From contig BSYQ01000010.1 in assembly GCA_030272585.1 (NCBI GenBank), positions 2,108,001-2,172,000 of the forward strand: a stretch of 64,000 nt of DNA, read 5' to 3'. Below the pieces are notes generated by a model. That model was not told the origin of the DNA, ran no database searches, and saw only the letters and a list, made by a program, of their open reading frames with translations. Shown piece after piece: positions 3,362-51,554 of this stretch. Made by a program: the position numbers and the translations under genes. Numbering within the stretch: position 1 is the stretch's first letter; each line of letters starts with the position of its first letter. This DNA is from Bryopsis sp. KO-2023 (taxonomy: Eukaryota; Chlorophyta; Ulvophyceae; Bryopsidales; Bryopsidaceae).

Positions 3362-3369
3362 TAGTTTAA
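3355..3369 (-). promoter_or_regulatory. gag/pol junction of element A: ATTAAAC site and TAATG overlap
   Basis: On the minus strand gag ends GCA TTA AAC TAA and pol is in the -1 frame. The heptamer A TTA AAC directly precedes the stop and is in the phase needed for -1 slippage. The pol ATG overlaps the stop as TAATG, so coupled reinitiation is the alternative. Element D has the same TTA-AAC-stop ending. Confidence 0.5.
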
Positions 3370-5604: not shown

Positions 5605-6340
5605 CGTGCTCGTCTACCGACGAGTTTAGAACAAGTGTGACTGTAGTAATAAACCAGATTTGAAGTAGAAGAATGACTTGTCCCTGGCTATTTGGCCTTG
5701 CTGTACGTAAGTCGTTTTAGAGATAGCCAAAAATAGAGTGGCCGACACGTCGTGCCAGTTCCTGTCGCTAGCAGGAATAAAATAGGTCGCACAGATAGAT
5801 TCTGTCGACACAGTTAAACTTAACTTCGGCCTTACGCCTGGGTAAACGTCGTCGACTCAGTAGACTACGTCTGGTCGCGACTTAGGGAGGTAAACAGTGT
5901 GATTCCGACGAACACGCTGATGTATGACGTGTGTCGTCGTCTGCACTGCGCGTCTGGAACTTCCAGTCGCTGTCTGCTTGATAGAGAACTGTTTATAGAC
6001 CTCCTACTGGGTCGTGAACCAGAACGATTACGTTCTTGCGTTCCTGCACGTTAGCTGTAGGCCTGTCGAACTTAGTCGACTGCGAATTTCTGATTACAGA
6101 TTTCGCTAGGGTCGTCTGGGGGTAGCCTACACGTTTCTATACGTGAGGGAAACACGTTTATCGTGTTTGTAGAGTCGCTTCGCCTTTCCTGCGTGAAACA
6201 GAAATTGATATCAGAGTAACTGCAGCGAGCCTTTCACTTATAACCTCGGCTCTGGCGCTTTCCTCTTTCGCTTCCACCTTTAGGATCACTTTTACTTTCG
6301 CTAAGAAAACTTCGGCGTCGTCGTCGACTTAGGAGCTCTA
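5605..6340 (-). other. untranslated leader of element A
   Basis: About 740 nt between the primer-binding site and the gag start, with no long ORF. It presumably carries packaging and dimerisation signals. I see no recognisable internal gene. Confidence 0.6.
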
Positions 6341-13710: not shown

Positions 13711-14984
13711 TTTTCAGAGAAGAACGCTGCAACGCAGCTGCAGAGAAGCTTCTTGGAAGGTAAACAGTTCAAGTCGATATCTTCGACAGAAAATTCGCCA
13801 TCATTTGCACAGTTCCAAAGTTTCTGAAAAAAAAATTCATATCCCTACCGTAACTGAAGGCTTCGCGAGCCATCGCCACACTTCCCCCAAAAAAGCATTT
13901 TTGAGGATGTCCATATTGGTACCAAATAATTTCAAAAACGGCAAAAAGAGGCCAGCATTTTTCCGCCCCAAAAATGACATTCCACCCAATCACTATCAAG
14001 TTACTATTGAAGGCAAAGGTTTTCCCTGAGAGAAAAGCAGTGCTTTTTTTTGAGGTTGAGGTTGGATGAATAGAAATGAACAGGATAAGTAGGTAGGTTG
14101 AGTCCAGTTCAGAGAAATTGAAAAGTTTGGTTGTGCTCTGATAATCAGAGCCTCTGAATAACATTTGTCTGTAAGCTTGCTTTTAAATTGCTATCCTTAT
14201 TTATTTTTTTATTTTTTTTACTATCTACGAATGGTAGTTTGGACTTCTGTTTGGTATTTGATTGCGATAGAAGGCGAGCGGCTTCTCAGGCAACAGTGTG
14301 ATCATTATCATTGTCAAGAACAGCATCAACCGATTTTTTTCAAAACACTAATTTTGTATGCTTTTATCTGGACGACCAAATCAGTGCCCTGTTGATCAGT
14401 CCGCCATCGAGACTCGAGCCTTCCAGTCTGACTGCCAATCAATTCCTCATGTCTCCGGCATTATGATGGGTGATGGCCTCTTCTTGCCACACTACAATTA
14501 TTGGCGATCGGTCGATCAATTTCGTGTTTCAATTTCGACCCTTGGTGCCAATTTCTCTTCATCATAGTTCCAATTCAATGAAATTTTTCCTGGCTGCTGG
14601 GATCTCGTAGAAGAGCAGTTCCAAAATTAATAGTTGCTCTTTTGGTTTCCTTTTGAAGACCTTCCACTTCACTTGCTGTGTGAAAAGAAAAATTTGGAGC
14701 AAATTTTGCTCAGCAAAGCCACCCGAAATTGAATCACAACTTTAAAAAGGGGTCAGAGGGCAGTAGTCCTTTCAACTCTGGCTCCCAAAACAACGATTTT
14801 TCCGTGTTGATGCCCTGTTCACTGTTTTCCTTTCCACTTGCGCTGCTTTGTCGCACCTTCAAAAAATGTTCCACTCAGAAAGGCGGATGCTGCTCGCTTT
14901 CGTAAACACATTCATCCTGTGCTTCCTTTTCTGTGGCGACAGCGCTGCGCATCAAGGTGTCTTTCAAGCGAAAAGCGTTTAAAA

Positions 14985-15472: not shown

Positions 15473-16729
15473 CTACTTCCGATAGACTGTTCTCTCGTAC
15501 ATGGGGGCATCATCAGCTTCCCAACTGTCGCTCGCCATTTGTTTGTACATCCGCTCCGAATCCGGTTCTTGAGAATTATGCGTAGGATGTCGTCCAGAAT
15601 CACTCGCAGGGGCGGCGCTGGCCCGGGGCGGCGCCTCAGCATGAACCTCGGGCGGGGCGGCACTAGGTTGGTTGAAACCCCTTGGATTCGAAGGGCCATC
15701 GGCGACGAAAATGGGGAGGCTTACGGAACTTCGACCGAGACTGTATCCTGCGGTCGCCTTCACAGTGAATTGGTGGGTTATGTGTGCGCCCTGGACCGTT
15801 AGAGTCGGCAACGGCCATTCGTATTGATACTGGGACTCGTCGAAAGTGTGTCGAAACTTGACCTCTTGAGCGTGCGCCAGAATCTGACCGTTTGAAAGGT
15901 GGAACTCTTTCCCAGCCAATTCGTGCCTGTACGTGTCGACGTGACCTTGTGCAGCGTACGACGACACGATCTCCAACTTAACCTTGAAGTGTTTGATCGG
16001 CGACCTGCACTCGTAGTTGTCGACCAGCACCTCCACGGGGATTGGTTCCCGCCACCAAAATGAGGCTTTGGGCAGCTTGATCTTTATCCGAACGAACCCT
16101 CTTCCAAAGCAGCAACACAATCTGGGGACCAGACGCCGGTCGACCTCCGCAAAGTAGTTCCGGGGAACGGAATCCAAATTGACGTCAGGAAGCATCCGCA
16201 CGTCGGCACTGCACTTGAGGTCCAGCTTCATTGGCCTATCGACCCAGCTCTTTATCTCATAGTTGATCCTCTTCACAGGGTTGTGCCCGCAGCTTGGGAG
16301 GCAATCTCTGGGAAAGGAAAACCTGAGCGGAAAAGAGTATTGACGACCATTCTCCAAAAAAATTGGATCTCCGTCGGTTCCCTTTGGTAAGCCGAGTAGC
16401 GTCACTTGTTCATCGACGAACGTTCTTTTAGCGCAATAGGTGCTGCTGGTTTCACCTTGGCCATTGCTTCGAGTGATGTACACTACCTCGTTTCCAACAA
16501 GGGAGAGCCGAACTGCCCTTGCTTTGGTGCGCTCGTTTATTTCCAAGAACACCTGGCCAGTGACCGTTCCACCAGGATACACATCATAGTTGTCTAAAGC
16601 GATGCAATAGCGCTTCACCGTCTTCACCATCTTTTCAAAAGGCTGCGAGTTCAGTGCCCCAGCTGTCGTTGCAGTCGTCTTTATTTTTTGCCCTGAGTCC
16701 ACGGACCGTACTTGTCCGTTGTGTGACAA
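15473..16729 (-). CDS. arrestin-domain protein, copy 2
   Basis: An intronless 418-residue paralogue of the ORF at 12502-13710, clearly similar along its whole length, including the two arrestin domains and the tail ending DAPMYERTVYRK. It differs by a longer N-terminus (MSHNGQVRSVDSGQ...), an extra TVK near the start of the domain and small indels. Both copies are open, so neither shows signs of decay. A MITE lies 66 bp upstream of its start (16795-17074) and could supply or disturb its promoter. Start choice carries the same uncertainty as copy 1. Confidence 0.82.
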   Translation of the reverse strand: MSHNGQVRSVDSGQKIKTTATTAGALNSQPFEKMVKTVKRYCIALDNYDVYPGGTVTGQVFLEINERTKARAVRLSLVGNEVVYITRSNGQGETSSTYCAKRTFVDEQVTLLGLPKGTDGDPIFLENGRQYSFPLRFSFPRDCLPSCGHNPVKRINYEIKSWVDRPMKLDLKCSADVRMLPDVNLDSVPRNYFAEVDRRLVPRLCCCFGRGFVRIKIKLPKASFWWREPIPVEVLVDNYECRSPIKHFKVKLEIVSSYAAQGHVDTYRHELAGKEFHLSNGQILAHAQEVKFRHTFDESQYQYEWPLPTLTVQGAHITHQFTVKATAGYSLGRSSVSLPIFVADGPSNPRGFNQPSAAPPEVHAEAPPRASAAPASDSGRHPTHNSQEPDSERMYKQMASDSWEADDAPMYERTVYRK

Positions 16730-16794
16730 TGGACAAATTGAGACAGAGTTTCACTTTTTGTTTACGTGTGGCGCATCGTCTTCGATTCGTAATA

Positions 16795-28128: not shown

Positions 28129-30929
28129 CATCCAGTCTTACAGAAAAAAAAAAAAGAACAATGGTGTCTATGTAGGTGCATCAGAAAAGAGAATTGATAT
28201 TTCCTGATTTTGAAAAAGGGGGGGGGGGAATCTATTTGTGGTCGCATCCTTCTAAGAATCCAGGTGAATCTCTCTCTCTCAATTCTCCCTTTCTTTTTAT
28301 TCTTTCATGTTCTCCAGTTTGCTTTTATCTTGAGTGTGTTTCAGAAAAAAGATAAAAAAAAAAAAAAAAACAGAAAGGGGGATGGTGAGAGGATAGGAAA
28401 AAAAAGGGGGGAGGGGATGTAGTAAAGGGAAAAAAAGTTGCAATGGGATGCAATGGTAAAAAAAAACAAATATGAAATTATATTGGTTTGGGTCTGTTAC
28501 AGCAATAGTTCAGCAATCTATCTATCTCTATATATATATGTGTGTGGTTTTTTTTGAAGATGTTTTGTATATTTCTCTTGGTCAGGGAATGGGATGGAAA
28601 ATTAAAAAGAATTATTAGAAAAGAAAAAAAAAACAACAAGGAGACAGGAGATATTGAAAGGATTGTTCATGAGAAATTTTGATTTTTATCAGCCTAGGGG
28701 ACAGATATATTTTTTTTATTCGTTTTTTTTTTCAACTTTATGTTTTTTTTCTTGGATCTTCCCAGAAAAGAGGGGAAAAAAAACGATAGAAAGAAGAAGA
28801 CTCCGTCCAATTTTTTTTTTCATTTTTGGGGTTGGGTGGGCAAAAGTTAAGAAACTCAATGGGGAGGAGAAGTGGCAAAGAATTCTGGAATTACATCAGG
28901 TGCTTTTTTTTTTTAATGGAGAAACAGAGAAAGAATGAAAAAAGAACTTGAGTGGAAATACCCAATTACAGCAGGGCGCGATGGATGAAACATTTCAAAT
29001 GGAGGAATTAATGTCTTGCTGTCAAACATGATGAAAGAATTTTGAAAAATTATTAGGGGAATAACGAAAGCAAGATTTTGAGAAAGAGATGGGGGAACCT
29101 GTTCGTTTTAAACCTTTTTCCCTAGGCACCTTTTTTTTTGCGACGTTTGTGAAACTTTTTTTGCTGGGTGGTAAGGCAAAAAAAAAAAAATAGAAGAAGA
29201 GAAATGCGGAGACGAAACCTCGTCTCGCTTTTTATATTAAAAAGGAAATTATGTATGTACATCTTGGTTTCCCTTTTTTGGTTTTGGTTTTATGGAATAG
29301 AGAAAAAGAAAAAAAAAATGGGTTTGATTAGGCCCAAAACATGAAGCGATGCTTTTTTTTTAACCTTTTTTTTCTTAGAAGAGGAAAAGGGATGTGTTTT
29401 TTTTTGTAATCATCATGGTGCGCTGTGTAATTGGCTTTTGCATCTACGAACAAACGGGGGTGGGAAAAAAAAAAAAAAGACAGAAAGAAGGAAAGAGGCA
29501 GAGATCTACAAGGAAAGAAAAGGAAAAAAACAACAAAAACACTTGGGGACTAAAAATAGCTGCAGGAAATCAAAATTGATGCTGTTTTCCCCTATCAGCA
29601 TGTCTTATAGCCAGGAGTTGATTTTTAAAAAAAGGGAAAAAATGGGGGCAGAAAATAATTAATAATGTGGATGTGTGTGTGTGTGTGTGTGCGCGAAGAG
29701 GAGAGGGGAGGGGAGGCAAGAAATTGGAGAATAAGTCTTGAAGAAAAGTGCAAGAGAATGAGGATCCGAAAAATGCTGTTGAAAAATGAGGGAAAAGAAA
29801 AGAAACCTCACAGTCAGAATAAAAGTTTTTTCTGCAACATTCGATGTATATTTTGCTAGGTCTTCCTGTTCTTTTAATTTTTTTCGGGGGGAAGGGGGGT
29901 GTTCGTTGACAAAAAAAAGAAGTCGAAGAATTTTCTTATTTTTTTAATAAATTAGGTCGAGAAAAGAATAAAATTAGAGTTTTTATGGGGGGGGTGGCTA
30001 AGAGGGGGAAGCAGAATGTTTTTCCCTTTTTTTTAACCAAATGAGTCCAAGGATAAGGGGAAAAATATAGAGAAGAAAAAAATCCCAAATCATCTTCATT
30101 TCACAACATGTTTAGTCTTTCGTTTTATTTTTTTCCAAACACTTTCAAGGATATATTGTTGGCATTGAAATAGCACACTTGAGAAAAAAAAAATTGAGTC
30201 AAAAAGAAGAAAAGAAAGGGATGCGGTTTTTTAGACGAGGTTGGGCTTTCGGGGAATAAATACACTTGCATGGAGAAGAAAAATAAAACTATAGAATTTG
30301 GTCAGTGGGCATTCTTCACAATCTGGAAATGTAAAGGACTCTTGCTTCCCCAGCTTTTGCTATAAAAAAAAAAAAAAATCTGAGAACTCAATGCTAGTGA
30401 GTACACAAGTGGTTTTCCAAGATTTATGCAAAAATGGAATGCCAGTATATGACTGATGATTTTCAAGTTGTTTCACAGGTGAAATGACATTGAAAAAACG
30501 ATATCGAGTTCTTACTGTCAAAATAATGTATTTTACACAAAATATATCCTTCATATGTCTGTCATATGTCAGACAACAGCACTCTGAAATGCTCACACTG
30601 AAAGTAGAAGTGTTGTCTTGAATTGCCTATTCTATATCCCTGTTGGATTGTTGGATCCCTGTCTGACTGAAGAGCAACAAAAATTCATCCCCATGCAAAA
30701 GAGGTTGAGAATATGTGACTGGCAAGAACCCATTTCGCCACATCAAAAAAATTATACAATAGAATCCTGGGCTTCTGCGGATGTAATTTTTTGGTTTGGT
30801 TTGGTTCTGCGGAGTGATTTATTAACTTGGAACCAAAACTTCATTGCAAGGAGCGCTGCCCACTCTCACAAGGACCCATCAAAGAATCAGTCGTCGTCCA
30901 TTCTTCATCCTGCGGTGGCTGTTGACTTA
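28129..30929. other. AT-rich region, no gene recognised
   Basis: About 2.8 kb dominated by A/G and poly(A)/poly(T) runs, with a (CTAT)/(AT) tract near 28516-28540 and (GT)n near 29665-29690. No ORF has recognisable domains. The first part is presumably the ankyrin 3' UTR. Confidence 0.5.
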
Positions 30930-31649
30930 TTAGTCACCCTCCACGTGTACAACAGCCGTCGACATATTCGGCAACGCAGGTAGCCCATACGGTGCACCCT
31001 CAAGAAGCCGATCCATAGGAGCGAAGTCCTTATGGTAGACCAACACAACCTCCTGGGCACCCACCGCATCTCGGAGGACTGACACCCCAGCAAATTCATC
31101 GAGCAAATAGCGACAAGCTATCGCCACCGCCTCCTCAGTTGCTTTCCCGTCCCTTTCCAGCAAGCCTCGAGTCGTTTCCTGTACGTCGCGCCGGAATGCG
31201 TCGTTCGTTTCGTAAGCTGTCTCGATCCTCTTCAATGCTGCAACGTAGGAGGGATTCGTTGATCCTCCTGTGACGTCGTCCCAAGCGCACTCCTTGCAGC
31301 GCACATCGCCAGCGGCTGCGTTGCGTGCGAGTCTGTGCAGTTTCTTACTCCTAATCCTCGCACTGCGAATGGCGCGGTCTTTCGTGTAGCCAAGGGCTAA
31401 GTATGTCCAAACCGACGGCGCCTGTGGAACCAATGGGCGCACGGTCCACCCCTCGGAGAGTGTCGAAAGTATATACTGGAGCCTGCTGGTTACGTTCTTC
31501 TTGTTGTAATGCCCGTTTTTTGGCGACATCGCGAAAATAACCACACCGGAATTGACTGGACGCATAAACGAAAAGGCTTCTCGAGGTACACTTGTTTCGG
31601 GAGGAGCTCCTTTCGTTGTGGCGGCTGCGTCTTGTTTTTGTGCTCCCAT
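30930..31649 (-). CDS. cyclodipeptide synthase (CDPS), copy 1
   Basis: An intronless ORF of 239 residues, the typical CDPS length. CDPSs are class-I aminoacyl-tRNA-synthetase-like enzymes that take two aminoacyl-tRNAs and make a cyclic dipeptide. Aligned by eye to AlbC: VVIFAMSPKNGHYNKKN matches the catalytic loop (Ser42 = Ser37, Asn45 = Asn40); a basic helix (IRSARIRSKKLHRLAR) matches the tRNA-binding alpha4; NPSYVAALKRIETAYETNDAF matches the conserved middle; RYLLDE gives Tyr181 and Glu185 (= Tyr178, Glu182); VLVYHKD gives Tyr205-His206 (= Tyr202-His203). The Tyr-to-Tyr spacing of 24 is identical. Asn/Tyr/His at these positions places it in the NYH subfamily. No tailoring enzyme is visible nearby. 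The amino-acid specificity cannot be read. Confidence 0.82.
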   Translation of the reverse strand: MGAQKQDAAATTKGAPPETSVPREAFSFMRPVNSGVVIFAMSPKNGHYNKKNVTSRLQYILSTLSEGWTVRPLVPQAPSVWTYLALGYTKDRAIRSARIRSKKLHRLARNAAAGDVRCKECAWDDVTGGSTNPSYVAALKRIETAYETNDAFRRDVQETTRGLLERDGKATEEAVAIACRYLLDEFAGVSVLRDAVGAQEVVLVYHKDFAPMDRLLEGAPYGLPALPNMSTAVVHVEGD

Positions 31650-31935
31650 GGCAACAGTTGGAGAGGTGGCGAAGCTGTTGAAAGTCGCGACTTTTGGAGG
31701 GTTGTGGGTTTGAACGGTGCTGTGCGGTATGAATTCTTATGGTGTGAAAAGCCTGAAAGTGTCGACTCGGCTCGGGATGTTTGACAGACTAACGGGCTGT
31801 GCCGATATCCCCGAGGTAGCACCGCAACCCGCACCCCCACTCGTTGTTCTGTGTCACACAACAAGGTTCTGGTTAATGTCCCCTCTCATCCATCATCTCA
31901 CACAGTGTTCCCAACCCTCAACTACGGGTCCTCTA

Positions 31936-31968
31936 CCCTGAACCCCTGAACCCCTAAACCCTAAACCC
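31936..31968 (+). repeat. interstitial telomere-like repeat (CCCTGAA/CCCTAAA)
   Basis: About five units, first CCCTGAA(C) variants then CCCTAAA, the reverse complement of the plant-type TTTAGGG telomere repeat. It lies about 290 bp upstream of CDPS copy 1. Confidence 0.75.
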
Positions 31969-31969
31969 G

Positions 31970-34500
31970 ATGTAATGGATCACAAGTAGAAAGGGGTGCC
32001 GTTACGACTGGTCGTGGTTCGGTTGTGAGGGTCGTGCCAGGCATTGTGGAGCATCGTGACGAGACTGTGAGAGGAGTGTCGTGGGGCCACCACGATGCCT
32101 GCCACGACAAATTTTGTGCTTGGCATTCCGTATCGAAGTCCCATTTTCTAGGCAGCTTGGTGACTTTGGCTCCTATTTTCGAGCGAACTGGCCCGCAAAG
32201 GTCTCTTGAGTTGCGTTTCTGACGTTTGCGAGGTCGAGGTGGAGTTCGCGCATTGCGCCGCTATTTTCGGTTTCAGAGGTCGACTTTCCTCGGTTTTATA
32301 GTCGTCACGATTTACTGAGCGACGACATCATGCTTTACTCACTGGTTCAATTACTACGAAATTTTGTGAGCTCGCGACAGAACATCTGAGGCATGTGTTC
32401 ACGAAATTTTGTGGCAAACGATGAACTTTAACGTGTCAAAACGTTCATAAGGGAGGTGAAAAAATGGTTTTTGCTTTGTTTCTGGTTTCGGAGTCACTGC
32501 ATCACAACCTCTCGATCAATAAATCTAAAATGTTGTGGGCTTTATCTATGTGTATCAGAGATGCTGCCCACAAAATTTCAGATCAAATGGATGTCTTACT
32601 GGTGAACTGTAACCTTAGATATTAGTGGATAGTTATTCTGGGACGGAGTAAGTATGAACAATGCCCAACATTGCATTCCTCTCAACTAACCTGACCTTCG
32701 GTAGCTCAGGTTTTATTATCTTTGCCAACAGGAAGCATCATAGGATACCACTGCCTGACCCTGTGCTTTCTTGCCCCTTCTCCACACCCGTGCTCGCCCT
32801 CAAAAACATCCAGAACCTGTCCCCGCTACTATCAGCACCCCTTCCAAGAAACCAAGAACAGACCTACTACAGAACAGACTATTAGCCCTGTCTTTGATTC
32901 TCCACATTCCATCTGACTGTTTCTCTTGTTCTTATGAGCTCATAAAGTTGATCAAAAAGCATTATGGGGGAACTGATGCACATCTGTGATCGCCGTCTGT
33001 GGTGTTTCTCTGGTCAACGTTTGTTTGATTTGGATACCTTTCCCCAAGCTCTTTTCCAAATCCTGTATCATACAGGCTGTATAGCTGAGTGGGCAATGGC
33101 TTCTTCTTGATTCAAAACGCTCCCATCTCTCAATGTATGAACCCTTGTTAAAGTCACCTGACCAGGGACACAGAGTCGGTTTAATTAACGACCAGTGAAA
33201 AAAACGAACAAAGAACTAGAAGGGTTTGAGAATGTTGTTTCCCATTTCTTTGTTTTGGTAACGAACCAACCTGAGGGGTAGAGGGTGCTCCTCTTGACCT
33301 TTCTCGCCAGACAAGCGGTTGTCCTGCGCGGCACAAACCGACCATTATATGAAAAACGCTTTCTCCCAGACAGTTTTCGTAAATAATGTTTCCGTCGAAA
33401 AACAATTTCTTGCGAAGGTTTTCTGAAAACACTGTACCTCACCACCATTTCGAACGCTCCATCGGCACAGAGCTTTCTCGTCACAAAATCAGGCCGTCCT
33501 CCATAAACCCTGAACAAAAAAAAGTATCAATGCACGAAACTTTTCGACCCCCATCGCCCTCACTCCAGGACCAAGAGTCGGCTGAGGCCGAATTTCTGTC
33601 CCTGCTGCGTTTCCCAGTACCCCGCCATCGTGAAACACCACCCACACGGGAGCTGGAAGTTCGAACAACCATATTGGTTGAGCGCATGGCGAGTTGTTCC
33701 TTGGCAAAAAATACCACTGGCCTGGGTATCAACGACGAAGAAAAGAAAAGAATGATCTGCCACAAACGCTGGGGGGGGAGGCCCCCACCACCAGAACGGG
33801 CAAGGACAACAATAGTGGCGGCTGCTGCCTCTATACCCTGCCATACAAAAACATAAAACTGTCATTCCACAGTGATTCAAAAAAGTCCAAAGTTTACTGC
33901 ACGGGCAAGAAAATCAGTGGTTATGGGGCCTGTTTTTCCCACTATCACTCAAAAACAAAGATTAGATCACGTTGCTAAGAGAGACGTTTTCTATCTGCTA
34001 GCTCAACATCATTCTAATGAATATATGTTGGGGCCAATCAAAAATAGTACAGCTTGCAATTACGTTGGACGTAATTTATTTTTCTTCTCTATTGTAGGTT
34101 GGTTTATTCCAGTTTTCTACGAATGGGGCCAGCCAAACACAAGTCTTTTTTTCCAAAAATGAAATTGCTGCTGCTGATCTGACATAACTTTTTAATTATT
34201 GCTGAGGTCCGTCAGGGTAACCCATGAAAAAAAAAAATCTTAAGCACCTTTATCATACACTCACCGCCCAGCAATTTTTGAATCGATTCAGTTAGGTTTT
34301 AGACGAAGGACGGGATTCTGCACGATTTAGATATCATCCCACCCAGTTTACTAACACTTGGCTTGGGCAGTGTGTCTTCTCAGCACGAGCACTTATAAGT
34401 TGGCAGTTATTCTGGGGCGGGGTAAGTATATTATTTCATTTTGATGTTATCTATTCCAACGAAAAAACAAACAAACAAACATAATTACATTACATTTCCC
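31970..34500. other. intergenic between the CDPS copies; no firm gene
   Basis: An imperfect hairpin lies near 32031-32108 (GTCGTG.CAGGCAT arms). Minus-strand open stretches at about 33880-33560 and 33504-33420 are flanked by a good acceptor (TTTTTTTTGTTCAG near 33506) and could be exons of an unrecognised gene, but no family motif supports this. Confidence 0.35.
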
Positions 34501-34504
34501 AACG

Positions 34505-34745
34505 AAAACATGTAGTGTTACAAGTTATATTCGTTTCAGAATCCACATTCATAGAAAGAATCCTCCTTCCTAGGAGAAGAATAATGAAAGAATGTGCCAT
34601 CACATTATGATAAATCAAAATCTAGGCAATGAGACTGTTCTTGAAACGCCATAGATTGACCCCACTCCACCATTGCATTGCCCTCCTCCCCAACCCCAAA
34701 GAAAACATGGTTGGGGGAGGGGGAGATCTGTAGAAGATCATTGTT
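34505..34745. repeat. dispersed repeat, diverged copy 3
   Basis: Matches the order of 12010-12290 and 14985-15240 (GTGTTACAAGTTATATTCG, TAAATCAAAATCTAGGCAAT, ATAGATTGACCCCACT, ending GGGGGAGATCT). Its terminal C-run/G-run hairpin is better preserved here. Confidence 0.5.
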
Positions 34746-34844
34746 GACCACGCTTAGCCGGTTCATGTCCCAGCCCACACTTCGTGGCAAGATAAACAAT
34801 CAAACCCCACCCAATCTCACAAGAATCCAAAAAAGAATCAGTCG

Positions 34845-35564
34845 TCACACTACAACAGCTGTCGAGATATTCGGCAACGCAGGCAACCCATACGGTGCAC
34901 CCTCAAGAAGGCGGTCCATAATAGCGGCCTCCTTGTGGTAGACCAACACAACCTCCTGGGCACCCACCGCATCTCGAAGGACTGACACCCCAGCAAATTC
35001 TTCGAGCAAATAGCGACAAGCTATCGCCACCGCCTCCTCAGTTGCTTTCCCGTCCCTTTCCAGCGCGCCTCGAGTCGTTTCCTGTACGTCGCGCCGGAAT
35101 GCGTCGTTCGTTTCGTAAGCAGTCTCGATTTGCTTCAATGCTGCAATGTAGGAGGGATTCGTCGATCCTCCTGTCAGGTCGTCCCATTCGCAGTCCTGGT
35201 AGCGCACATCGCCAGCGGCTGCCTCGCGAGCAAGTCGATATAGTTTCCTCCACATCTCCCGCGCACGGCGAATGGCGTGGTTCTTCTTGTAGCCAAGGGC
35301 TAAGTACGTCCAAACCGACGGCGCCTGTGGAACCAATGGGCGCACGGTCCACCCCTCGGAGAGCGTCGAAAGTATATATTGGAGCCTTCTGGTTATGTTC
35401 TTCCTGTTGTAGTACCCGTTCCTGGGCGACATTCCGAAAGTGACCACACCGGACTTGGCTGGACGCATAAACAAAAACGCTTCTCGAGGTTCAGTTCCCG
35501 TCGCCTTTGTTTCGAGAGGCGCTCCTTCCGTTATTACGACAGAGTCTGGATTTTGTGCTTCCAT
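34845..35564 (-). CDS. cyclodipeptide synthase (CDPS), copy 2
   Basis: An intronless paralogue of the ORF at 30930-31649. The start at 35564 (MEAQNPDS) aligns with the copy 1 start and gives 239 residues; an in-frame Met eight codons upstream (35588) is also possible. Catalytic positions are all kept: Ser46 and Asn49 in FGMSPRNGYYN, Tyr185 and Glu189 in RYLLEE, Tyr209-His210 in VLVYHKE. Copies differ mainly in the N-terminal 40 residues, in the segment after the basic helix and near KEAAIMDRL, which could alter substrate choice. About four-fifths of positions look identical by eye. Some 3' flanking DNA is also shared, so this is a DNA-level duplication of roughly 4 kb spacing. Confidence 0.82.
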   Translation of the reverse strand: MEAQNPDSVVITEGAPLETKATGTEPREAFLFMRPAKSGVVTFGMSPRNGYYNRKNITRRLQYILSTLSEGWTVRPLVPQAPSVWTYLALGYKKNHAIRRAREMWRKLYRLAREAAAGDVRYQDCEWDDLTGGSTNPSYIAALKQIETAYETNDAFRRDVQETTRGALERDGKATEEAVAIACRYLLEEFAGVSVLRDAVGAQEVVLVYHKEAAIMDRLLEGAPYGLPALPNISTAVVV

Positions 35565-35639
35565 CGTAACGGCTGCGGAGTGCGTCAAAACGGCACTGGC
35601 ACTGTCACAAGGACGGAAAAGAACAAAAAATCAAGAATG

Positions 35640-36477: not shown

Positions 36478-36845
36478 ACCCCTGTGCACAGGACAGGACA
36501 GGACAGACTGTCTGTTCTGTGCACAGGGTCAGACCTGTGCTGCACAGGCGCACAGACCTGTACAGCACAGCACAGACAGGGTCTGTGCAAAGTCTGTGCA
36601 GGTCTGTGCACAGTCTGTGCACATTCTGTGCAGTTCCTGTGCAGAGTCTGTGCAGAGTCTGTGCAGAGTCTGTGCTGTGCTGTGCAGTCTGTGCACCTGT
36701 GCAGCACAGGTCCGACCTGTGCACAGAACAGACAGTCTGTCCTGTTCTAGCCTGTGGAATTTCGCAAAACAGGACAGGACAGCACAGGGTGCACAGAACC
36801 CGTACAGAACCCTGTCCTGTGCAATGCACAGGACAGGGGTCTGTC
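36478..36845. repeat. CTGTGCA-rich long inverted repeat
   Basis: The left arm 36499-36575 and right arm 36670-36744 are near-perfect reverse complements (a few mismatches and 1-2 nt gaps). They are separated by about 94 nt of degenerate TGTGCAGAGTC tandem units. Both sides continue in CAGGACAGG / CTGTCCTG. Transcription would give one long imperfect hairpin. The overlapping ORFs on both strands are products of the low-complexity repeat. Confidence 0.85.
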
Positions 36846-39285: not shown

Positions 39286-42081
39286 TTCGAACGAGAGCGA
39301 AGGAACAGTAGATGTTTGTCGGGGTTTGCAGTAGCGAGTCGGAAAACAGAAACCAAAGTGCGCTTGGTGTATGGTTCCTTGTCTTCGCGCTTAGTTTTTA
39401 TCGTCGTTCTCGGCTCCACGGTCCAGTACTCCTGTACAGCCACGCCTTCCTCGGATCGTGTAGTCAGCTGGGAGTTACCTCAGGACTGAGATGATGTTTC
39501 CCCGTTAAGCTGTCCCATACCAGCCGGGGTCGGATCATTCTCGGTCCGTCTCCATTTGGATCCAACTCCCCCATCGCTGGCTCCAATGCGATCCGGTCTC
39601 AGTTATGGCCATGTTTGGCTGAGTTTTTCCTTTCGAACTCAGCTAACAATTCTGCACAGTGTTCCAGATGTGCAACCGGTTCCCATGTGGCCTCATGGGT
39701 CGGATAACCCTTCCATAGTACCAGGTACCTCTTTCTTTTTCCAGCTCCCTTGGATCGTAGAACCGTCTCCACTTCGAATTCCTCGGCTCTAGTTAGTTCG
39801 TCCACCAGAGCCGGTCCTGGAGGATCGTCCCTCTTAAATTCCTCGGAACGTATATACTCCTTGAGTTTGGAGACGTGGAAGGTTGGATGTAGTCGCCATG
39901 TCTCTGGTAGATCAATGCGGTAGGCCACCGGTGATATCACTTCGGTCACCTTGAATGGCCCGATGAACCGTCTTCGGACCTTAGCTGGAACATGCTTGGT
40001 CACGGCCAAAGGAAGATGTGCACTTCGTAGGCACACTTCTTGGCCCACTTGGAACTCCACGTGCCTCCTTTTCTTGTTGGCTACTTGGCACATTTGCTCC
40101 TGGGCGGCGTGGTAGTTCTTCTTCGCGTCCATCAAATCGTCCCGCATTCGGTCCACCATGGCTTCTGCGGCCTCAACATTACTCTTGGGTCGGTCCAACT
40201 CCAATCCCTTCGGGTGCTGGCCGTACATAAGGTAGAACGGCGTGTACTTGGTACTGGCGTTGATCGAGTTATTCGCTGCAAATTCTGCCGTGCTCAGGTA
40301 GTCGCTCCACTTCTCCGGCCTGGCCTCAATATAGGGCCGAAGGAAGTTCTCCAGGGTCCGGATCGTTACTTCACTCTGGCCATCCGACTGTGGATGGTGA
40401 GCAGTTGACATCCGCAGATCCGTTCCTACGAGCCTGAACAGTTCCTTGTAGAACTGGCTCGTGAACCGTGGATCGCGATCCGAAACGATCACTTCAGGTA
40501 TCCCTGAGGTAGGGAACACCTGGGATAGAAACAACTCGGCATACTCCTTTGCCGATACCTCCTTGGTACATGGCACGAACTTGCACATTTTTGTGAGCCG
40601 GTCCACAAAGACAGCTACAGCGGTATAACCATTCGATTTCGGCAAATCGGTCACAAGGTCCGTTGTCAGCTGTTCCCACTTATATGTCGGAACGGGAAGC
40701 GGATTCAGCAATCCTTTGGGCTTCGCGTTCTCGGTCTTCATCACTTGGCATGTGGGGCACGAGCGGACATAGTCGGTCACGGTTCGTCTCCAACCGCGCC
40801 ACCAATATCTTCGGCTCACGAGCTCGGCCGTTCTGGCCACTCCTGGATGTCCCGCCATCGGAACATCGTGGTGATCGTGCAACACCACTTGTCGTTTTGT
40901 GGTAGGGACCACTAGCTTTGGGTCCACTCCTGGTTCGGTTTGATATAAAAGCATTCCCGGTTCGGTCCGAGAATACCCGGGTACATGTGGTCCTTGGTCC
41001 AGTTGGTCCAGAATACGCTTCAAAGTAGGGTCATCAGTGGTCGCTTGCGTCCATTCCTGCGCCTCCCCGGGCGAAATTTTGGCCTCCAAAATTGCATTCA
41101 ACTTGAGCTGAGGCTTGCGTGACAATGCATCAGCCACCACATTGGATCGGCCCGGGAGGTAGACGATCTTCGGCATAATAGACTGAAAATACCCCGCCTT
41201 CAACCAGCGGGTTTGGGTCCGAGACAGGACCCGTTGCTGGAGGAAATGGGTAGCGGGCTGGTGGTCCGTGAAGACAGTGGTCCCTTTTGGCGCTCCTTCG
41301 AGATAATGGCGCCATTGAGCCAGGGCATAGGAAATGCCCAAAAGCTCCCTTTCATAGGCCGAGTACTTCTGTTCGGCCGAGTTGAGGGACCTACTGAGGA
41401 ACGCCACCGGTTGAAGTCCATCGTCAGCCTCCTGCATCAATGTGGCTCCCAGCGCAAAATCCGAAGCATCCGTGACAACTACATATGGCTTGTCCGGATC
41501 CGGTATCAGCAGGACCGGGGCCGTCGTCAGACTTTCCTTCAGGGCTTCAAAAGCTGCCTTCTGCTCGACTCCCCATTCCCATGGCTGGTCCTTCTTCACA
41601 AGCTTCTGGATCGGCGCCGCTACCTTCGAAAACTGTCGAATGAAGCGTCGGTAATACGAAACCATCCCCAGAAAACTTCGGACCTCAGGAACAGAGGTCA
41701 GCGGCTCCCAGTCCCGGATCGCCTGGACCTTGGACCGATGCGGCGAGATTCCATTCGCCGAGATCCAATGGCCCACAAAATCCAACTCCTTCACGGCGAT
41801 AGAACACTTCGATGCCTTCGCGTACAGGTTGTGCTCCGCTAGCTTGTCCAATACCAAGCGTAGGTGCTCCGCATGCTCCTCCTCGTTCTTGCTGTAGACT
41901 ATGATGTCATCGAGGAACACGACCATGAACCGGTCATGGAAATCCCGGAACAGGTCGTTTATCATAGCCATAAACTGCGGAGGGGCGTTTGTGAGCCCAA
42001 ATGGCACCACCTTGTACTCGTAGTGTCCGTACCGGGTCCGAAACGCTGTCTTCTCCTGGTCCTCAGGCCGGATCGGCATCT

Positions 42082-42091
42082 GCCAGTAGCC
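42082..42091. repeat. target-site duplication of the MITE (left copy)
   Basis: GCCAGTAGCC, repeated at 42555-42564. Confidence 0.9.
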
Positions 42092-42554
42092 AGAGATAGG
42101 ACTTGGGCCAAATTTTTGGTCCGACTCCGGTCCGGTCCGGTTACGGTCCGGTTACGGTCACCGTACTACGGCCGTAACTCCGTACCGTAACCGGAGTAAT
42201 ATGTTGTTTTTACGGTACGGAACAGGTACGGTATAACTACGGTAGGCCCTAAATCACCGTGAAGTAGCGTGGTTCAGTGCTAAAGCGTTAGGCTGCAGTC
42301 AGTAGGGTCGCGGGTTCGAATCCCCCTGGGTTCCTTTGGAATCGCGGGACCCTGCGGGGGTCACTTTCTACGGTTTACGGTTGTTACGGCCGTTACGGTC
42401 GTTACGGTCCGGTACGGAGCGGTACGGAGTGGTACGGTGCTACGGTTACGGCCGTAAAAGTACGATTTTCTGACGAAAATTGTACTCCGGTTACGGTCCG
42501 GTTACGGTGGTTACGGTCCGGTTACGGTGACCGTAACCGTAAAGTCCTATCTCT
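42092..42554. mobile_element. 463-bp non-autonomous Mutator-like element with tRNA-like core
   Basis: 13-bp terminal inverted repeats (AGAGATAGGACTT) bounded by a perfect 10-bp duplication, the size range of Mutator-like elements. Subterminal regions are dense in GGTTACGGTCC-type repeats on both sides. It carries no ORF but has a tRNA-like sequence in its centre. It inserted into a conserved codon block of pol B, and the interrupted frame confirms its borders exactly. Confidence 0.85.
42262..42334 (+). other. tRNA-like sequence inside the MITE
   Basis: It has an A-box-like GTGGTTCAGTGC, a loop region reading CTGCAGT (GCA in the anticodon position) and a perfect B-box GGTTCGAATCC (42313-42323) in a T-arm-like GCGGGTTCGAATCCCCC. 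The anticodon and acceptor stems pair poorly, so a working tRNA is unlikely. Pol III initiation from the boxes is possible. Confidence 0.45.
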
Positions 42555-45173: not shown

Positions 45174-48083
45174 TTATCTCCACTTCCAAACCTTCTTCTC
45201 CTGCTCTGTTGCTTCCAAGTGATTCTGCTGGAAGTATGCTGCTGCAACATCTGGACAGTTCTCCAGGTTCCTGATAGGCTCCCAGCTATCATGGCCCCTG
45301 TCATATCCTTGCCATCTGATTAAGAATTCCCTTGCAATTCTCCCCCTGCCTCTGCCTCTCTTGACTTCTCTGTGATCCAATATCCTCTCCACATGGAACT
45401 CTGTGTTTCCATCAATGACCTCAGGTGGAACTGGGTTGGGTTCCCTTTCCCCATACTGTCCATCCTGGTGGAATCTTCTCAACTTGGATATGTGGAACAC
45501 TGGATGTAGACTCCACTGCTGGGGTACCTCCAATTCATAGGCCACTTGGCCCACCCTCTTCAGCACTCTGAATGGTCCCACATATTTGGGTCCAAGCTTC
45601 TTGCATCTATCTCCAGCCAGCTTCAAGTCCTTAGTACTGAGAAGGACCATGTCATCCACATTGAACTCATCTGTTCTCCTGTGCTTGTCTGCACTTTGCT
45701 TCTGTCTATTCTGAGCTCTAGCAATGCATGTCTTGGCCACTTCCACATCCATCTTCAGATCATTCAGTATCTCATCTACACCCCTGATGGGTGTCTCAAT
45801 CTTCTTTCTCCCCAACAAGGCTGCAGGCACCAAAGGTTCCTCTCCAGAGTTCAAGTAGAATGGGCTATACCCAGTACTTGACTGCTTCCCTTGGTTGTAC
45901 ACAAACTCAGCTGCACTTAATTTCAAATCCCAATCTGTTTGGGCATGGCTGACATAAGCTCTCAAGCTCTCTTCCAGTATCCTGTTTAACCTCTCTGTTT
46001 GGCCATCTGATTGTGGATGCCTGGCAGATGACATCTTCAATGTGGTACCCACCAGCTTCATCAACTCCTTCCACAATTCAGAGGTAAATCTGGCATCCCT
46101 GTCAGACACCAGATCCTCAGGCATTCCATGATGCCTCCAAACTTCATCAAACAGCATCCTTGCCATCCCAACAGCTCCAATGGTTCCCTCAGTGGCACAA
46201 AAGTGGGACATCTTTGACATCCTGTCCACAAACACCACAATGGCATCCTTTCCCCTTGATGTCCTTGGCAGTCCTGTGATTAGGTCCAAACTCACAGAGC
46301 TCCATCTCCTGTTTGGGATTTGCAAAGGCTGTAGGTCTCCAGCCAACTTCTGGGTTGATGATTTAGTCTTCTGGCACACTGGGCAGCTCCTGCAGTATTG
46401 GGCTACCTCTTGGGACATCTTCTTCCACCAGAAATGCTGTTGTAACACAGCTAGTGTTCTCTCCTTCCCTTTGTGTCCTCCAATCAGACTATCATGCCCT
46501 TCCTTCATCACCATTGCTTTTAGACTCTTTGGCACAACAATCTTCCCTTCCACAGTCTGTAGAACTCCATCAGCAGACATCTTGAACACCCTTTGGGTCT
46601 GGATGTCAGAATCCAATCTCTTCAGGATTTCTTTGCAATGTACATCATTCTTTTGGGCATCAGCAACCTCTTGTGGACTCCCTTGAGCCATAGGTTCCAT
46701 GGATGACTTCTCCAGTGCATTGATTTGTTCATCAGATCTTGACAATTCATTTACAGTACCCCTTTTGGTACCTCCTCTTGCATCATTTGGCATCACATCT
46801 GTTTTCAGTCTCTCAGGCAGCTTTCCAGTTTGGCATCCAGTAACCTTCACCAATCTGGAACCCAATGGCTCTCCTGGTTGTTCATCAAACACAAGATCCT
46901 GTGGATGATTCTCTCCCCAGGCCCCCAAGCCTTGGTACCTCTGAACCTTGCCATCATGCTTCACAAGAGTTTTGGTTGTGCCATTTGGTGCAGATGCCTT
47001 CAAATCTCCCCCTCCACTTCCAGAATCCCTTGGATCCCCTGGATGTGGACATCTGGAGAGGGCATCAGCCACCACATTATCCTTTCCAGGAATATGCACA
47101 GTCTTGAACCTGAAGGGAGCTAGGAACTCCACCCATCTGGCTTGTCTCCTGCTCAGATGTTGTTGGGAATCCAGCCAAATTAATGACTGGTTGTCAGTCC
47201 TGAGGACAAATTCCCTTCCTTCCAAATAAGCTCTCCACTTCTTTAGGCAGTGTACAATTCCCAACAGTTCGATCTCATGGATAGGGTACCTGGATTCAGC
47301 ATCAGTGAGCTTATGAGATTCAAATGCCACTGGATGCAATCCATCTGGTCCCTCCTGCATCAGTACTCCCCCCACTCCTGTTTGGCTGCCATCAGTAGCC
47401 ACAATCCAGGGCCAATCATCCCTTGGATGTATCAGAACAGGTGCTGAGCACAATGCTTGTTTGAGATCCTCAAATGCTTGTTTTTCCTCTGCTCCCCATA
47501 TGAATTGTTGATTTCCTTTTGTCAGGTTGGTCAATGCTGCTGCTATGCCACTGAAATTTGCCACAAATCTTCTGTAGAAGCAGCACAATCCCAGGAAGCT
47601 CCTGACATCATGGACATTAGTGGGTGTGGGCCATTGCTTGATGGCTTCCAGCTTATCAGCCATAGGCTGTACTCCTTGATGTGTAACCCAGGTACCCAAG
47701 AAATCCACTTCCTTTTTTCCCACAGCAGACTTGACCAGCTTGGCATATAGTTTATGCTTCCTTAGGGCCTCCAGTACCAGCTTCATATGTCTGGCATGCT
47801 CTTCAGGTGAGGATGAATAGATGAGGATGTCATCCAGAAAAACTTGAACAAATTTATCAATATAGGGAGCTAAGATCTCATTCATCATGGACATGAAATG
47901 TCCAGGAGATCCACTCAGCCCCATTGGCATGACCAGGAATTCATACTGGCCATATTTTGTTCTGAATGATGTTTTCCCCTCCTCCCCTGGAGCCATCCTC
48001 AACTGCCAGAAGCCAGCCCTGAGATCCACTTTACTGAAGTACCTGGCTTGATTTAGCCTATCCAGCATCTCATCCATTCTGGG
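45174..48083 (-). pseudogene. pol: pol of element C, 3' part (RT to chromodomain), separated by insertion of D
   Basis: Joined to 59868-58180 it gives an open frame of exactly 1533 codons, so pol was intact when D inserted. This part has most of RT (FSKVDLRAGFWQ, catalytic VFLDDILIYS), RNase H (VATDGSQTGVGGVLMQEG), an integrase finger and DDE core (SLDLITGLPRTS, SDRDARFTS, RHPQSDGQTE) and a C-terminal chromodomain (FLIRWQGYDRGHDSWEP). The RT and integrase sequences are clearly different from those of A, B and D, so C belongs to another chromovirus lineage. Confidence 0.9.
48079..48083. repeat. target-site duplication of element D (left copy)
   Basis: CTGGG, repeated at 58175-58179. Confidence 0.95.
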
Positions 48084-48503
48084 TGTTAGTCTTTTAGCGC
48101 TATACGAGGTAGTTTGGGATAGAGCCGAGGGTGGCTGACGCATGCGGGTTCGCGAGTAAGACAGATTAGACCCAGAGTTTGGGGCATGCGTCAGCGTACT
48201 ACACTTAGGGGTACTTAAGAGGCCCACTCGTTGTTTTGACATTCACTTTACTTTGTAAGAACTCGGGATTCGTGGGATTGGTGTGTTCCCGCTTGTGTGT
48301 GTGTTTGTGTGTGTGTGTGTTAAGTGTTTGCCTGACGCAATCACTTCCCAACCCAAGTGCTCTAGTAGCGTTCACAACCGCGCTAGCTAGAGAGTTGTCT
48401 AAACCAACAAACCCCACAAGTATACTTGCGTTAGCCAGCAAGTTATCACGAATCCAACCAACACAGCCGACCACTATTGCGTCACCCACAAGCTTCACTA
48501 TCA
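48084..48503 (+). repeat. 5' LTR of element D
   Basis: 420 bp, TGTTAG...CTATCA, with a (GT)n tract near 48294-48320. Confidence 0.97.
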
Positions 48504-48648: not shown

Positions 48649-51300
48649 ATGGCTGACCGTGAACACGCATTGGCAGTGCGCGAGCCTCAAGTCGAAGAGC
48701 CAGGGATTGAACCTGAGTTCGATGAGGAATTGCCTGACGCACCCAATGTTGTGTACCAACAAATAAACGTCCAGAACATCCACAATGTCCAGCAAGCAGC
48801 TGTCGACATAGACATGGGAGCTGATGCGGAAGCCTTAAGAGAGGATGTGGATGCGGTCCATGACCGTGTGGACGATTTAGCCCACGGGCTAAGGGGTCAC
48901 CTGCAGCAAGTTGACCAGACACTGGGGCAGAGGCTAGCCCATACTGAGGCCTCTGTGTCGAACCAACTGGCTGGCGCATCAGAGGTGATCGGGCAGGCGC
49001 TGGAAACACAGCACCAGCATGCGCAACAGGTTGAGGCCACACAGCATGCGGTGGTGTCGCAACAGCAGAAGCTGGATTCAGTAGCGGCTCAACATAGTCG
49101 ATACGAGCAGAGGCTATTACGCCAAGATATCGACCATAGGAAAGAAAGAGCCGAGATCAAAGCTTCTGTGGACGCAATAACGAGGAGAATGGATGCCGCA
49201 GACATTCTAGCGGACTCTCGTTTTGCTGACCTAAAAGAAGCAACTGAAGCATCAGCACTTCAGTTAAAACAACTCTCCGAGTTATCCCTTGTTCAAGGGC
49301 GGAGAATTGAAGGCTTATTAGGAACTGTTGCGGATTCCAACGAAAAAGTCGAACGGACTCTAGAATTGTTTCGGGAGTCCTTGCATAAGCAAGGTGCGGA
49401 GGTGAAGCGTTTGCAGAGCTCCAGAGTAGCAATTCAAAAAGATTTGATTGCCTTGGAGAAAAAGGCATCCAAAACCTGGGATCAGCAGCAAGATGCAGCT
49501 GATGTGGTTGCCTTAAGATTATCTGGCCTGGAACGAAGCATGGAGGATGTGAGTGGCGGAAGTCAGAGCGCCCAAAGTGGAAGTGATGCTCGTGCAGTAT
49601 CACCAGAGCGTGAAGAATCAACTTCCCCTGAGCCTGAGGACTCAGCCTTTGGGATGCCGCTGCCGAAGAAATCAGTAAAGCAGTTGGCTGCATCATGGCC
49701 GCCACTGGACCAGAGCTTCGCGGTAGGAATGGTTGGGGCAGGAACCTCAACAATACCGGCTCCTCCAGCAGTACAGGTCGAGGAGGGTGAAATTGTTGCT
49801 GCAGAAGCACCACCATGCACTGCAGTGGACAGCGCACCAGACGCTGATTTCACATTCCCTCAGTTGATACCTCCAAGTACAAGAGCTCAGCCTGGAGTAC
49901 GCATCTCAGAACCCGACTCTGCCGATGGATCACGTAGACCCACACGAACTAACCCAAGAGTTCTCTCCTCAGCAGAAGTGTTATACCAAATTGACCTTGA
50001 GCGTGCTAAGGCACAGGTCAGAGAAGAGAAAGGAAAAGAACCCATGCAGATCCCCACACGTACTGGAAGATTGGGACTTGGGTTAAGTGCTTTGGGAGCA
50101 AGGGTAGAAAATAATCCCTTTGCTGCACTTGGTTCATATGAGTCTACTGGTGGACCCAGTCGAGTTCCTCGCATGCGAGGTAACTTTGGAGACCCTGGTG
50201 ATGACGACCCAGATGATGATGGCGGTGATGATTACCGCGACAGACGAAACCGCCCACCTTCCCGCATTCCAGGTGCGCCTGATGGCGGAGGAGGTGGTGG
50301 CGGCGGTGGAGATGGTGGAGGCGGTGGACCTCCCGGTGGACCTCCTGATGGAGGTGGAGGTGGAGGTGGCGCTGGACCAGCAGGGCCAGGACCTCCTAGG
50401 CAAGGACAGTGGTTGCCTAGCACCGTCAAGTTGCAAATGCCTCGCGCATTTAACGGAAGTGGAGAACCAAAGGCCCGTAAATGGCAAGTGCTCATGACGC
50501 GGTACTTGAGAACCTGCGGAGTGCATGAAGCACAGTGGCAATCGATTATGGCCACTAACCTTTATGGAGCTGCCTCGGATTGGTTAACGATGCAAGAGTT
50601 GAAAATTCACCGAGGTGAAAGACCACCCTTCCGTGACTGGATGGACTTCATGGATGGCTTAGCTACAGCTTTCGAATTCTCTAGTGATCGAGATGAAGCG
50701 TGGCGTGACCTCCACAAACTCAAGCAGACTGGAACCGTGAAACAGTTCGTCAAAGAGTTTCAGCGGTTAGTCTTGAGGATTCCAGACCTCGAAGAGGATC
50801 ACCAGTATTTGCTCTTCGTGGATGGACTTAAAAGTGAAGTTCAGAAGTTAGTCGCAGCAACGGTACCTCGAGATGTCGAGGCCGCCATCATATCCGCCGA
50901 ACGATTGGAAGCCCTTGGAGTTGGAACACAAGGCCAAGGAGGGCAAACCAATCAGAAAAAGAAAGGAGTCTGGCGTGGTGGAAGAAAGAAGAAAGGCCAG
51001 AATCAGGGTCAGCAGCAGCAGAACCCTACACCACCAGCCCAAGCACCACCACAAGCTGCCGCAGGAGTGCAACAGCAGCAGCAACAGCAACAAGGACGAG
51101 GAGGAGGACGTGGTGGTGGTGGACGTGGACGCGGTGGTGGTAACCGTGGAAGAGGACAAGCCAATCAGGGAAGACAGAACCCCCAGGGGGGAGGGGGATA
51201 TAATTGTTATCTTTGTGGAAAGAAGGGTCACCCTGTGAGGCAATGTCCTAGATTGGAGGAGGTGAAAAACCTCCCCGATGTAAAAAAAATGTTAAACTGA
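48649..51300 (+). CDS. gag: Gag polyprotein of element D
   Basis: 883 residues. Acidic N-terminus; long coiled coil (about 60-310); Ser/Pro/acidic linker; a glycine-rich block with GGGGGGGGDGGGGGPPGG-type sequence (about 540-585); gag capsid domain (SDWLTMQELKIHRGERPPF, YLLFVDGLKSEVQKL; about 590-750); Gln-rich and RGG/RGGG repeats (about 780-850); one CCHC knuckle CYLCGKKGHPVRQC near residue 858. It ends MLN-stop. Domain order matches the Gag of element A, with an added poly-Gln/RGG RNA-binding-like tail. It would form the particle and package element RNA. Confidence 0.93.
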   Translation: MADREHALAVREPQVEEPGIEPEFDEELPDAPNVVYQQINVQNIHNVQQAAVDIDMGADAEALREDVDAVHDRVDDLAHGLRGHLQQVDQTLGQRLAHTEASVSNQLAGASEVIGQALETQHQHAQQVEATQHAVVSQQQKLDSVAAQHSRYEQRLLRQDIDHRKERAEIKASVDAITRRMDAADILADSRFADLKEATEASALQLKQLSELSLVQGRRIEGLLGTVADSNEKVERTLELFRESLHKQGAEVKRLQSSRVAIQKDLIALEKKASKTWDQQQDAADVVALRLSGLERSMEDVSGGSQSAQSGSDARAVSPEREESTSPEPEDSAFGMPLPKKSVKQLAASWPPLDQSFAVGMVGAGTSTIPAPPAVQVEEGEIVAAEAPPCTAVDSAPDADFTFPQLIPPSTRAQPGVRISEPDSADGSRRPTRTNPRVLSSAEVLYQIDLERAKAQVREEKGKEPMQIPTRTGRLGLGLSALGARVENNPFAALGSYESTGGPSRVPRMRGNFGDPGDDDPDDDGGDDYRDRRNRPPSRIPGAPDGGGGGGGGGDGGGGGPPGGPPDGGGGGGGAGPAGPGPPRQGQWLPSTVKLQMPRAFNGSGEPKARKWQVLMTRYLRTCGVHEAQWQSIMATNLYGAASDWLTMQELKIHRGERPPFRDWMDFMDGLATAFEFSSDRDEAWRDLHKLKQTGTVKQFVKEFQRLVLRIPDLEEDHQYLLFVDGLKSEVQKLVAATVPRDVEAAIISAERLEALGVGTQGQGGQTNQKKKGVWRGGRKKKGQNQGQQQQNPTPPAQAPPQAAAGVQQQQQQQQGRGGGRGGGGRGRGGGNRGRGQANQGRQNPQGGGGYNCYLCGKKGHPVRQCPRLEEVKNLPDVKKMLN
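51282..51300 (+). promoter_or_regulatory. gag/pol -1 frameshift region of element D
   Basis: Zero-frame codons are GTA AAA AAA ATG TTA AAC TGA. A AAA AAA (51282-51288) and G TTA AAC (51291-51297) both fit the X-XXY-YYZ phase for -1 slippage or a known relaxed variant. The -1 frame is open through this point and into pol without a stop. Confidence 0.6.
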
Positions 51301-51554
51301 CCGCCAGGCAGGAAACTGCTTCGTCTGAGCCTGGCCGACGCAAACGTCGTAAGCGAAACAGAGTTCGTAGGCGGCGTAGGAAGCTAAGATCAAAAGTAGG
51401 TGCCTCGAAAAAGGTTTGTACTCACAGCGGAAAACCTGGGGCGCGGACTAGTACACCGCGTGAAGAGAGAACAGAGACACTCTCCACATCTACCCAATCG
51501 GCACATGACAACTGCGATTGGAAAAATGAACAGAAGGAAAGCACACCGGATGAG

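Follow-up and report, generated by a model that had tools for sequence, protein, structure and literature searches.

Predicted NYH-type cyclodipeptide synthases form a nuclear gene family in the green alga Bryopsis sp. KO-2023

Cyclodipeptide synthases (CDPSs) link the substrates of translation to small-molecule chemistry. In the catalytic cycle of AlbC, a first aminoacyl-tRNA loads a serine, a second leads to a dipeptidyl-enzyme, and cyclization frees the diketopiperazine (PMC5816076, PMC7566563); the catalytic Ser, Tyr, Glu and Tyr are AlbC S37, Y178, E182 and Y202 (PMC7566563). CDPSs are mainly bacterial, with few cases known from fungi and marine animals (PMC5816076, PMC2922099). Here, two such genes are described from a 64,000-nucleotide stretch of Bryopsis sp. 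KO-2023 DNA (positions 2,108,001 to 2,172,000 of contig BSYQ01000010.1, assembly GCA_030272585.1; the stretch is referred to as the window and the contig as C10). A preliminary description had placed them in a plastid-bearing eukaryote, and they lie in the nuclear genome of what is indeed a siphonous green alga (Chlorophyta, Ulvophyceae, Bryopsidales; NCBI taxonomy). No CDPS reported from a green alga proper was found in the literature covered, which consisted mostly of open papers, with the Bryopsis genome paper outside its scope. The alga is a new lineage for a known kind of enzyme, and the expansion of the family is unusual.

Among described systems, the NYH-type CDPSs AlbC, YvmC and Rv2275 (PF16715, TIGR04539) resemble the Bryopsis proteins in fold, length, spacing of the S/N/Y/E/Y/H residues and possession of a basic helix; the Bryopsis proteins differ from them in sequence (~16 to 20% identity), in their plant-kingdom host and in forming a seven-gene family as opposed to a single operon gene. 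Four other cases were compared by description. Nvec-CDPS2 of Nematostella and its counterparts in other marine animals are, like the Bryopsis genes, nuclear and of the NYH type, whereas the fungal CDPSs, also nuclear and eukaryotic, are of the XYP type (PMC5816076, PMC2922099). The candidate CDPSs of Seminavis robusta are eukaryotic but belong to a diatom (PMC8027222), and the bacterial CDPS of ‘Candidatus Megaira’, a group of Rickettsiales living in symbiosis with algae and ciliates, is an antiSMASH prediction (PMC10132079).

The two window genes, P0001 and P0002 (Table 1), are uninterrupted ATG-to-stop open reading frames (ORFs) of 239 codons each, with 0 internal stops and 81% identity between their products. 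Both score above the cut-offs of the Pfam CDPS profile PF16715 (P0001, E 3.3e-13, 50.3 bits; P0002, E 1.4e-17, 64.7 bits; cut-off 27) and of TIGR04539, tRNA-dependent cyclodipeptide synthase (P0001, E 1.2e-21, 77.3 bits; P0002, E 2.4e-27, 95.9 bits; cut-off 45), a profile match far beyond chance. The preliminary description had read all landmarks of AlbC-type enzymes from the translations, and alignment with AlbC bears this out for both ORFs: AlbC S37, N40, Y178, E182, Y202 and H203 are all matched, with P0002 showing S46-x-x-N49, then Y185 followed four residues on by E189, and finally Y209-H210, where Y209 stands 24 residues after Y185. The residues that mark the NYH subfamily (AlbC Asn40, Tyr202 and His203) correspond to N49, Y209 and H210 in P0002 and to N45, Y205 and H206 in P0001. 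The same six catalytic letters occur in 121 of the 126 rows of the CDPS alignment. The proposed 239-residue length and basic helix likewise hold: helix alpha4, for which tRNA binding is a proposal cited in PMC7566563 and is putative here, contains nine K/R against one D/E in P0001, 9 against 2 in P0002 and 9 against 4 in AlbC, and ranges from 6 to 9 K/R and from 1 to 4 D/E across six listed Bryopsis copies.

The predicted structure agrees with this assignment. An AlphaFold model of P0002 (mean predicted local distance difference test score, pLDDT, 88.2) has the Rossmann-type fold, like that of class I tRNA synthetases, which characterizes CDPSs, and all 46 Foldseek matches at E ≤ 0.001 were CDPS chains; the structural alignments with known CDPSs underlie the low identity given above. 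By profile, residues and predicted fold, P0001 and P0002 are NYH-type CDPSs. By analogy with AlbC, the enzyme would bind one aminoacyl-tRNA, whose aminoacyl group would pass to the catalytic serine (S46 in P0002); a second aminoacyl-tRNA would then contribute its amino acid, giving a dipeptidyl-enzyme with the assistance of E189 and Y185, and a cyclic dipeptide (2,5-diketopiperazine) would be set free with the assistance of Y209. With family, fold and residues computed and the cycle carried over from AlbC, the best explanation, to which we give a probability of about 0.8, is a nuclear family of seven CDPS genes that would make cyclic dipeptides from aminoacyl-tRNAs; expression, activity and product are what we infer from this. 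That the alga makes cyclic dipeptides, and so would be a new source of them, is a sound prediction.

Table 1. Coordinates of the CDPS copies, duplicated segments and neighboring features (window, positions in the 64,000-nucleotide stretch; C10, positions in the contig)
Feature	Coordinates	Strand	Details
CDPS gene 1 (P0001)	window 30930..31649	-	239 aa, NYH type; S42, N45, Y181, E185, Y205, H206; ORF translation, profiles and residues
CDPS gene 2 (P0002)	window 34845..35564	-	239 aa, NYH type; S46, N49, Y185, E189, Y209, H210
Intact CDPS copy	C10:106764-107477		six-frame search
Intact CDPS copy	C10:140655-141407		six-frame search
Intact CDPS copy	C10:2198690-2199418		six-frame search
Intact CDPS copy	C10:2375722-2376453		six-frame search
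Intact CDPS copy	C10:2882218-2882904		six-frame search
Broken CDPS copy	C10:2190065-2190752		six-frame search
CDPS fragment	C10:2883275-2883448		six-frame search
3.6-kb segment with CDPS gene 1	window 28339..31935		duplicate at C10:2187524-2191044, 89.4% identical (blastn); CDPS there broken
Unit common to P0002 and copy C10:2198690-2199418	window 34755..35603	-	blastn, flank alignment
Ty3-type gag/pol ORFs	window 3364-5613, 39599-42151, 45174-48242, 51252-55292		first and last by profile, middle two by reading
Two similar, adjoining arrestin-like ORFs (tandem pair)	window 12505-13713, 15476-16750	-	uninterrupted; Arrestin_N and Arrestin_C in each
Cytochrome P450 gene, outside window	C10:2199877-2202250	+	PF00067, E 2.2e-62 (main exon); first exon a proposal by eye
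NAD(P)-binding (NmrA-like), reductase-like uninterrupted ORF	C10:2379513-2380214	+	NAD_binding_10, E 4.9e-15

Seven intact nuclear genes make up the family, two of them in the window. A six-frame search of the genome gave 8 matches with the Pfam profile and 10 with P0002 as the query, all on C10, where seven copies are intact, one is broken and one is a fragment (Table 1). Duplication has acted on different scales. One window gene was copied within a long segment, and P0002 shares with the copy at C10:2198690-2199418 only the coding sequence, 39 bp on its 5' side and 90 bp on its 3' side (90.2% identical over 864 columns), with unlike outer flanks. As for a retrocopy origin of this last pair, homology stops near the coding sequence, and no poly-A tract or target-site duplication was seen. 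Four public proteins of Bryopsis sp. KO-2023 are close relatives (BSKO_11118, BSKO_11155, BSKO_11241 and BSKO_10830), each labeled “hypothetical protein”; the public proteins listed in the protein search included neither of the window genes, nor the copy at 140 kb.

Bacterial contamination of the assembly was considered, as CDPSs are mainly bacterial and the Bryopsis culture is not axenic, holding at least 50 bacterial metagenome-assembled genomes (MAGs) (PMC12509668). However, the contig around the genes measures 5138194 bases and also carries arrestin-like, WD40 and Ty3-type genes, and the seven copies are dispersed over 2.8 Mb. The GC content at third codon positions is host-like (0.57 and 0.59 in the window CDPS genes, 0.60 to 0.63 in the arrestin-like and WD40 host ORFs, 0.41 and 0.44 in retroelement ORFs), and bacterial relatives in TIGR04539 are far away. 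Given the contig size, eukaryotic neighbors, base composition and dispersal, contamination is very unlikely, indeed close to negligible, and this reading, which the preliminary description had allowed for, was rejected.

The catalytic six, and with them the NYH marks, are unchanged in 7/7 intact copies. The ratio of nonsynonymous to synonymous divergence (dN/dS) is 0.48 to 0.51 in the four youngest pairs, a significant shortfall from 1 in every case (Fisher p from 0.0011 to 0.012), and 0.16 to 0.44 in the other 17 of 21 pairs, many of which have near-saturated synonymous sites. The copies are thus under net purifying selection, moderate in the young ones. They might instead be passengers, duplicates spread in repeat-rich DNA that are unneeded and decaying, as the broken copy and the fragment, the retroelement ORFs near several CDPS copies and the dN/dS of ~0.5 in young pairs would suggest; seven intact ORFs, some of them with a synonymous distance above 1, and a constraint significantly below neutrality make this distinctly improbable.

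Substrate choice was approached through the predicted pockets, with pocket positions taken from the methods of PMC5816076; for the fourth P1 residue, its text says 119 and its methods list 67, and the methods list was used. The P1 motif is TGLPWGVL in P0002 and IALPWGVL in P0001, with an unusual, small G185 in both; LGLPWGLL, LGCPWGLL and LGFPWALL in three other copies; and AAFPWCMW in two copies near the contig end, with FAFPWCVM in the metagenome protein P0007. These motifs imply at least two predicted pocket types among the Bryopsis copies; the copy at C10:106764-107477 differs in type from the window genes. In Table 2 of PMC5816076, the P-W pair occurs in four prolyl enzymes (LGFPWFMF, VGLPWFFF, LGLPWLFF and CGHPWLLY) but also in one leucyl (LGFPWLVF) and one F/I enzyme (LGLPWFLF), so that prolyl in the P1 pocket is a first guess only. 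The dipeptides made probably vary from copy to copy, because all copies keep one catalytic set but are unlike in their pocket residues. Faster evolution of the pocket than of the rest of the protein is not claimed: p was 0.023 for three young copies but 0.18 and 0.15 with more copies, in a test that took in sets without copy L002.

Alternatively, the CDPS fold could serve another activity, in which an aminoacyl-tRNA is bound but its group is transferred elsewhere or hydrolyzed, or tRNA use is regulated, with no diketopiperazine formed. The strong divergence of the family (a stem of ~2 changes per column; see below), P1 motifs with no exact match to any motif in that table, and the class I tRNA-synthetase-like fold, which is common to TyrRS, are compatible with this. 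All six catalytic residues, including those that serve only dipeptide formation and cyclization, are nevertheless kept in 7/7 copies, and such an activity is unlikely. Several other results weigh against cyclic dipeptide synthesis by this family. At AlbC position 35, P0001 has A where P0002 has G, and the young pairs are constrained only moderately. A single-sequence search of the PDB with P0002 gave no match below E 0.04, which points to strong divergence of the family. A scan of nine window ORFs found no domain of a modifying enzyme, and no cluster of such enzymes stands beside the window CDPS genes. Finally, two fungal CDPSs gave no product in Escherichia coli (PMC5816076); eukaryotic CDPS activity need not appear there.

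The seven-gene green-alga family would extend CDPSs to the plant kingdom and makes it testable whether seaweed diketopiperazines come from the alga or from bacteria. A clonable, assayable algal CDPS also bears on Seminavis robusta, whose attraction pheromone is diproline, with its synthase still unidentified (PMC8027222). Paralogs with fixed catalysis and differing pockets form a natural set for the study of substrate choice.

The origin of the family was addressed with trees of rows hand-chosen from 122 proteins plus loci; a protein search with query A2 listed 120 of 130 proteins, scored among the 7997 candidates sharing most words. The sample is biased to kin of P0008, one of the sampled relatives, which the query included, and Bryopsis is the only named eukaryote, with animal, fungal and diatom CDPSs left out. 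In the 37-row tree, the seven Bryopsis copies and P0007, from a 1191-base metagenome contig, form one clade (support 100/100) on the long stem mentioned above; support of 99/97 joins this clade to Patescibacteria, an archaeal MAG and further bacterial MAGs, and Actinomycetota, Bacillota and Legionella stand elsewhere. In a 44-row tree, one row of which is cyanobacterial and very long, the eight-row clade has support 98/100 and the wider Patescibacteria-side grouping is weaker, at 84/73. P0007 nests among the Bryopsis paralogs (98/94 and 91/92), so that duplication would predate the P0007 split if the placement is right; monophyly of the seven Bryopsis copies with P0007 outside is not rejected (approximately unbiased test, p 0.293). 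Among the Patescibacteria and other MAG loci (L009-L024), at least 10 bacterial CDPS frames run on to ~440 to 500 codons. The solute-binding domain PF00497 is present in several database relatives, with the CDPS fused to this second domain.

Searches of genome contigs gave no relative with query A2 and 20 loci, none a close donor, with query A4; viral contigs gave none. In genomes of three phyla, seed genomes included, PF16715 was matched in 1/398 (the seed itself), 5/246 (4 over the cut-off) and 2/292, and neither these nor the contig searches contained a close donor. The trees place the clade among prokaryotic CDPSs on a long branch and identify no one firm donor group in this sample. Of the proposed gene transfer followed by duplication, the duplication holds, with seven intact copies instead of two, and horizontal transfer from bacteria is plausible; ‘Ca. 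Megaira’ is an obvious donor type to test. If the genes were instead inherited from an old eukaryotic ancestor and lost in other lineages, or came from some other eukaryote, the history would change and the function would stay as proposed. NYH-type CDPSs in cnidarians and marine worms and the diatom candidates (PMC5816076, PMC8027222) speak for such an origin, and the long stem leaves the donor open; the 99/97 grouping, from a sample drawn with one of its own members as query, speaks against it, and we regard it as a serious but doubtful alternative to bacterial transfer. The preliminary description had also taken intronless CDPS genes among intron-rich neighbors to fit transfer. The WD40 neighbor gene (two ORFs) and, by reading alone, ankyrin-like pieces at ~25.4 to 27.7 kb in the window do look split, but the arrestin-like neighbors are uninterrupted too, so that intronlessness is weak as proof of recent transfer.

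Candidate tailoring enzymes were found outside the window. The copy at C10:2198690-2199418 stands head-to-head with a P450 gene, their proposed start codons 458 bp apart (335 bp if the longer public BSKO_11118 start is right). The main P450 exon is matched by the profile only from position 88 on and is preceded by a pyrimidine tract ending in AG, for which reason an intron is likely; the proposed first exon is a membrane-anchor-like ORF (ATG at 2199877) whose 82-aa piece has no Pfam match. Among PDB sequences, 7wzl (a putative P450) and CYP3A5 come closest, and within the genome its closest paralog shows 37% identity. By chance, 0.001 P450 neighbors of any intact copy would be expected within 458 bp and 0.008 within 3 kb, figures computed after the match had been seen and from 18 loci grouped by us from 33 matches. 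Two enzyme families were looked for, with one match: an exon-wise search of the genome for PF00881, in which we take the cyclodipeptide oxidase AlbA to be placed, gave no match for a nitroreductase-type cyclodipeptide oxidase. A CDPS gene lies next to a P450 gene on plasmids of Priestia megaterium and Streptomyces tsukubensis as well, but the Bryopsis P450 is eukaryotic-type and divergently oriented, with an apparent intron, and the likeness is at most a convergent pairing. The arrangement is suggestive of a tailoring partner for this CDPS copy. The NmrA-like ORF lies ~3 kb downstream of the copy at C10:2375722, on the same strand; both genes are leads for tailoring enzymes, no more. More tentatively, the alga may run its own tRNA-dependent cyclic-dipeptide pathway, with an expanded family, at least two pocket types and one gene driven, together with a product-modifying P450, from a common bidirectional promoter, supplying its own defense or gamete-signaling diketopiperazines instead of bacterial ones; this is possible, though we would not favor it.

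The surroundings of the window CDPS genes are retroelement-rich (Table 1), and Rfam gave no match on the window. A plant-type telomere-like repeat, CCCTAAA, occurs as two tandem units at window 31952-31968, ~300 bp upstream of CDPS gene 1 and internal to the contig. Window 36577-36695 is an array whose 11-base unit is rich in CAGAGTCTGTG, with a similar stretch near C10:2191548-2191960; this array, part of a dispersed repeat, lies near CDPS copies at two places.
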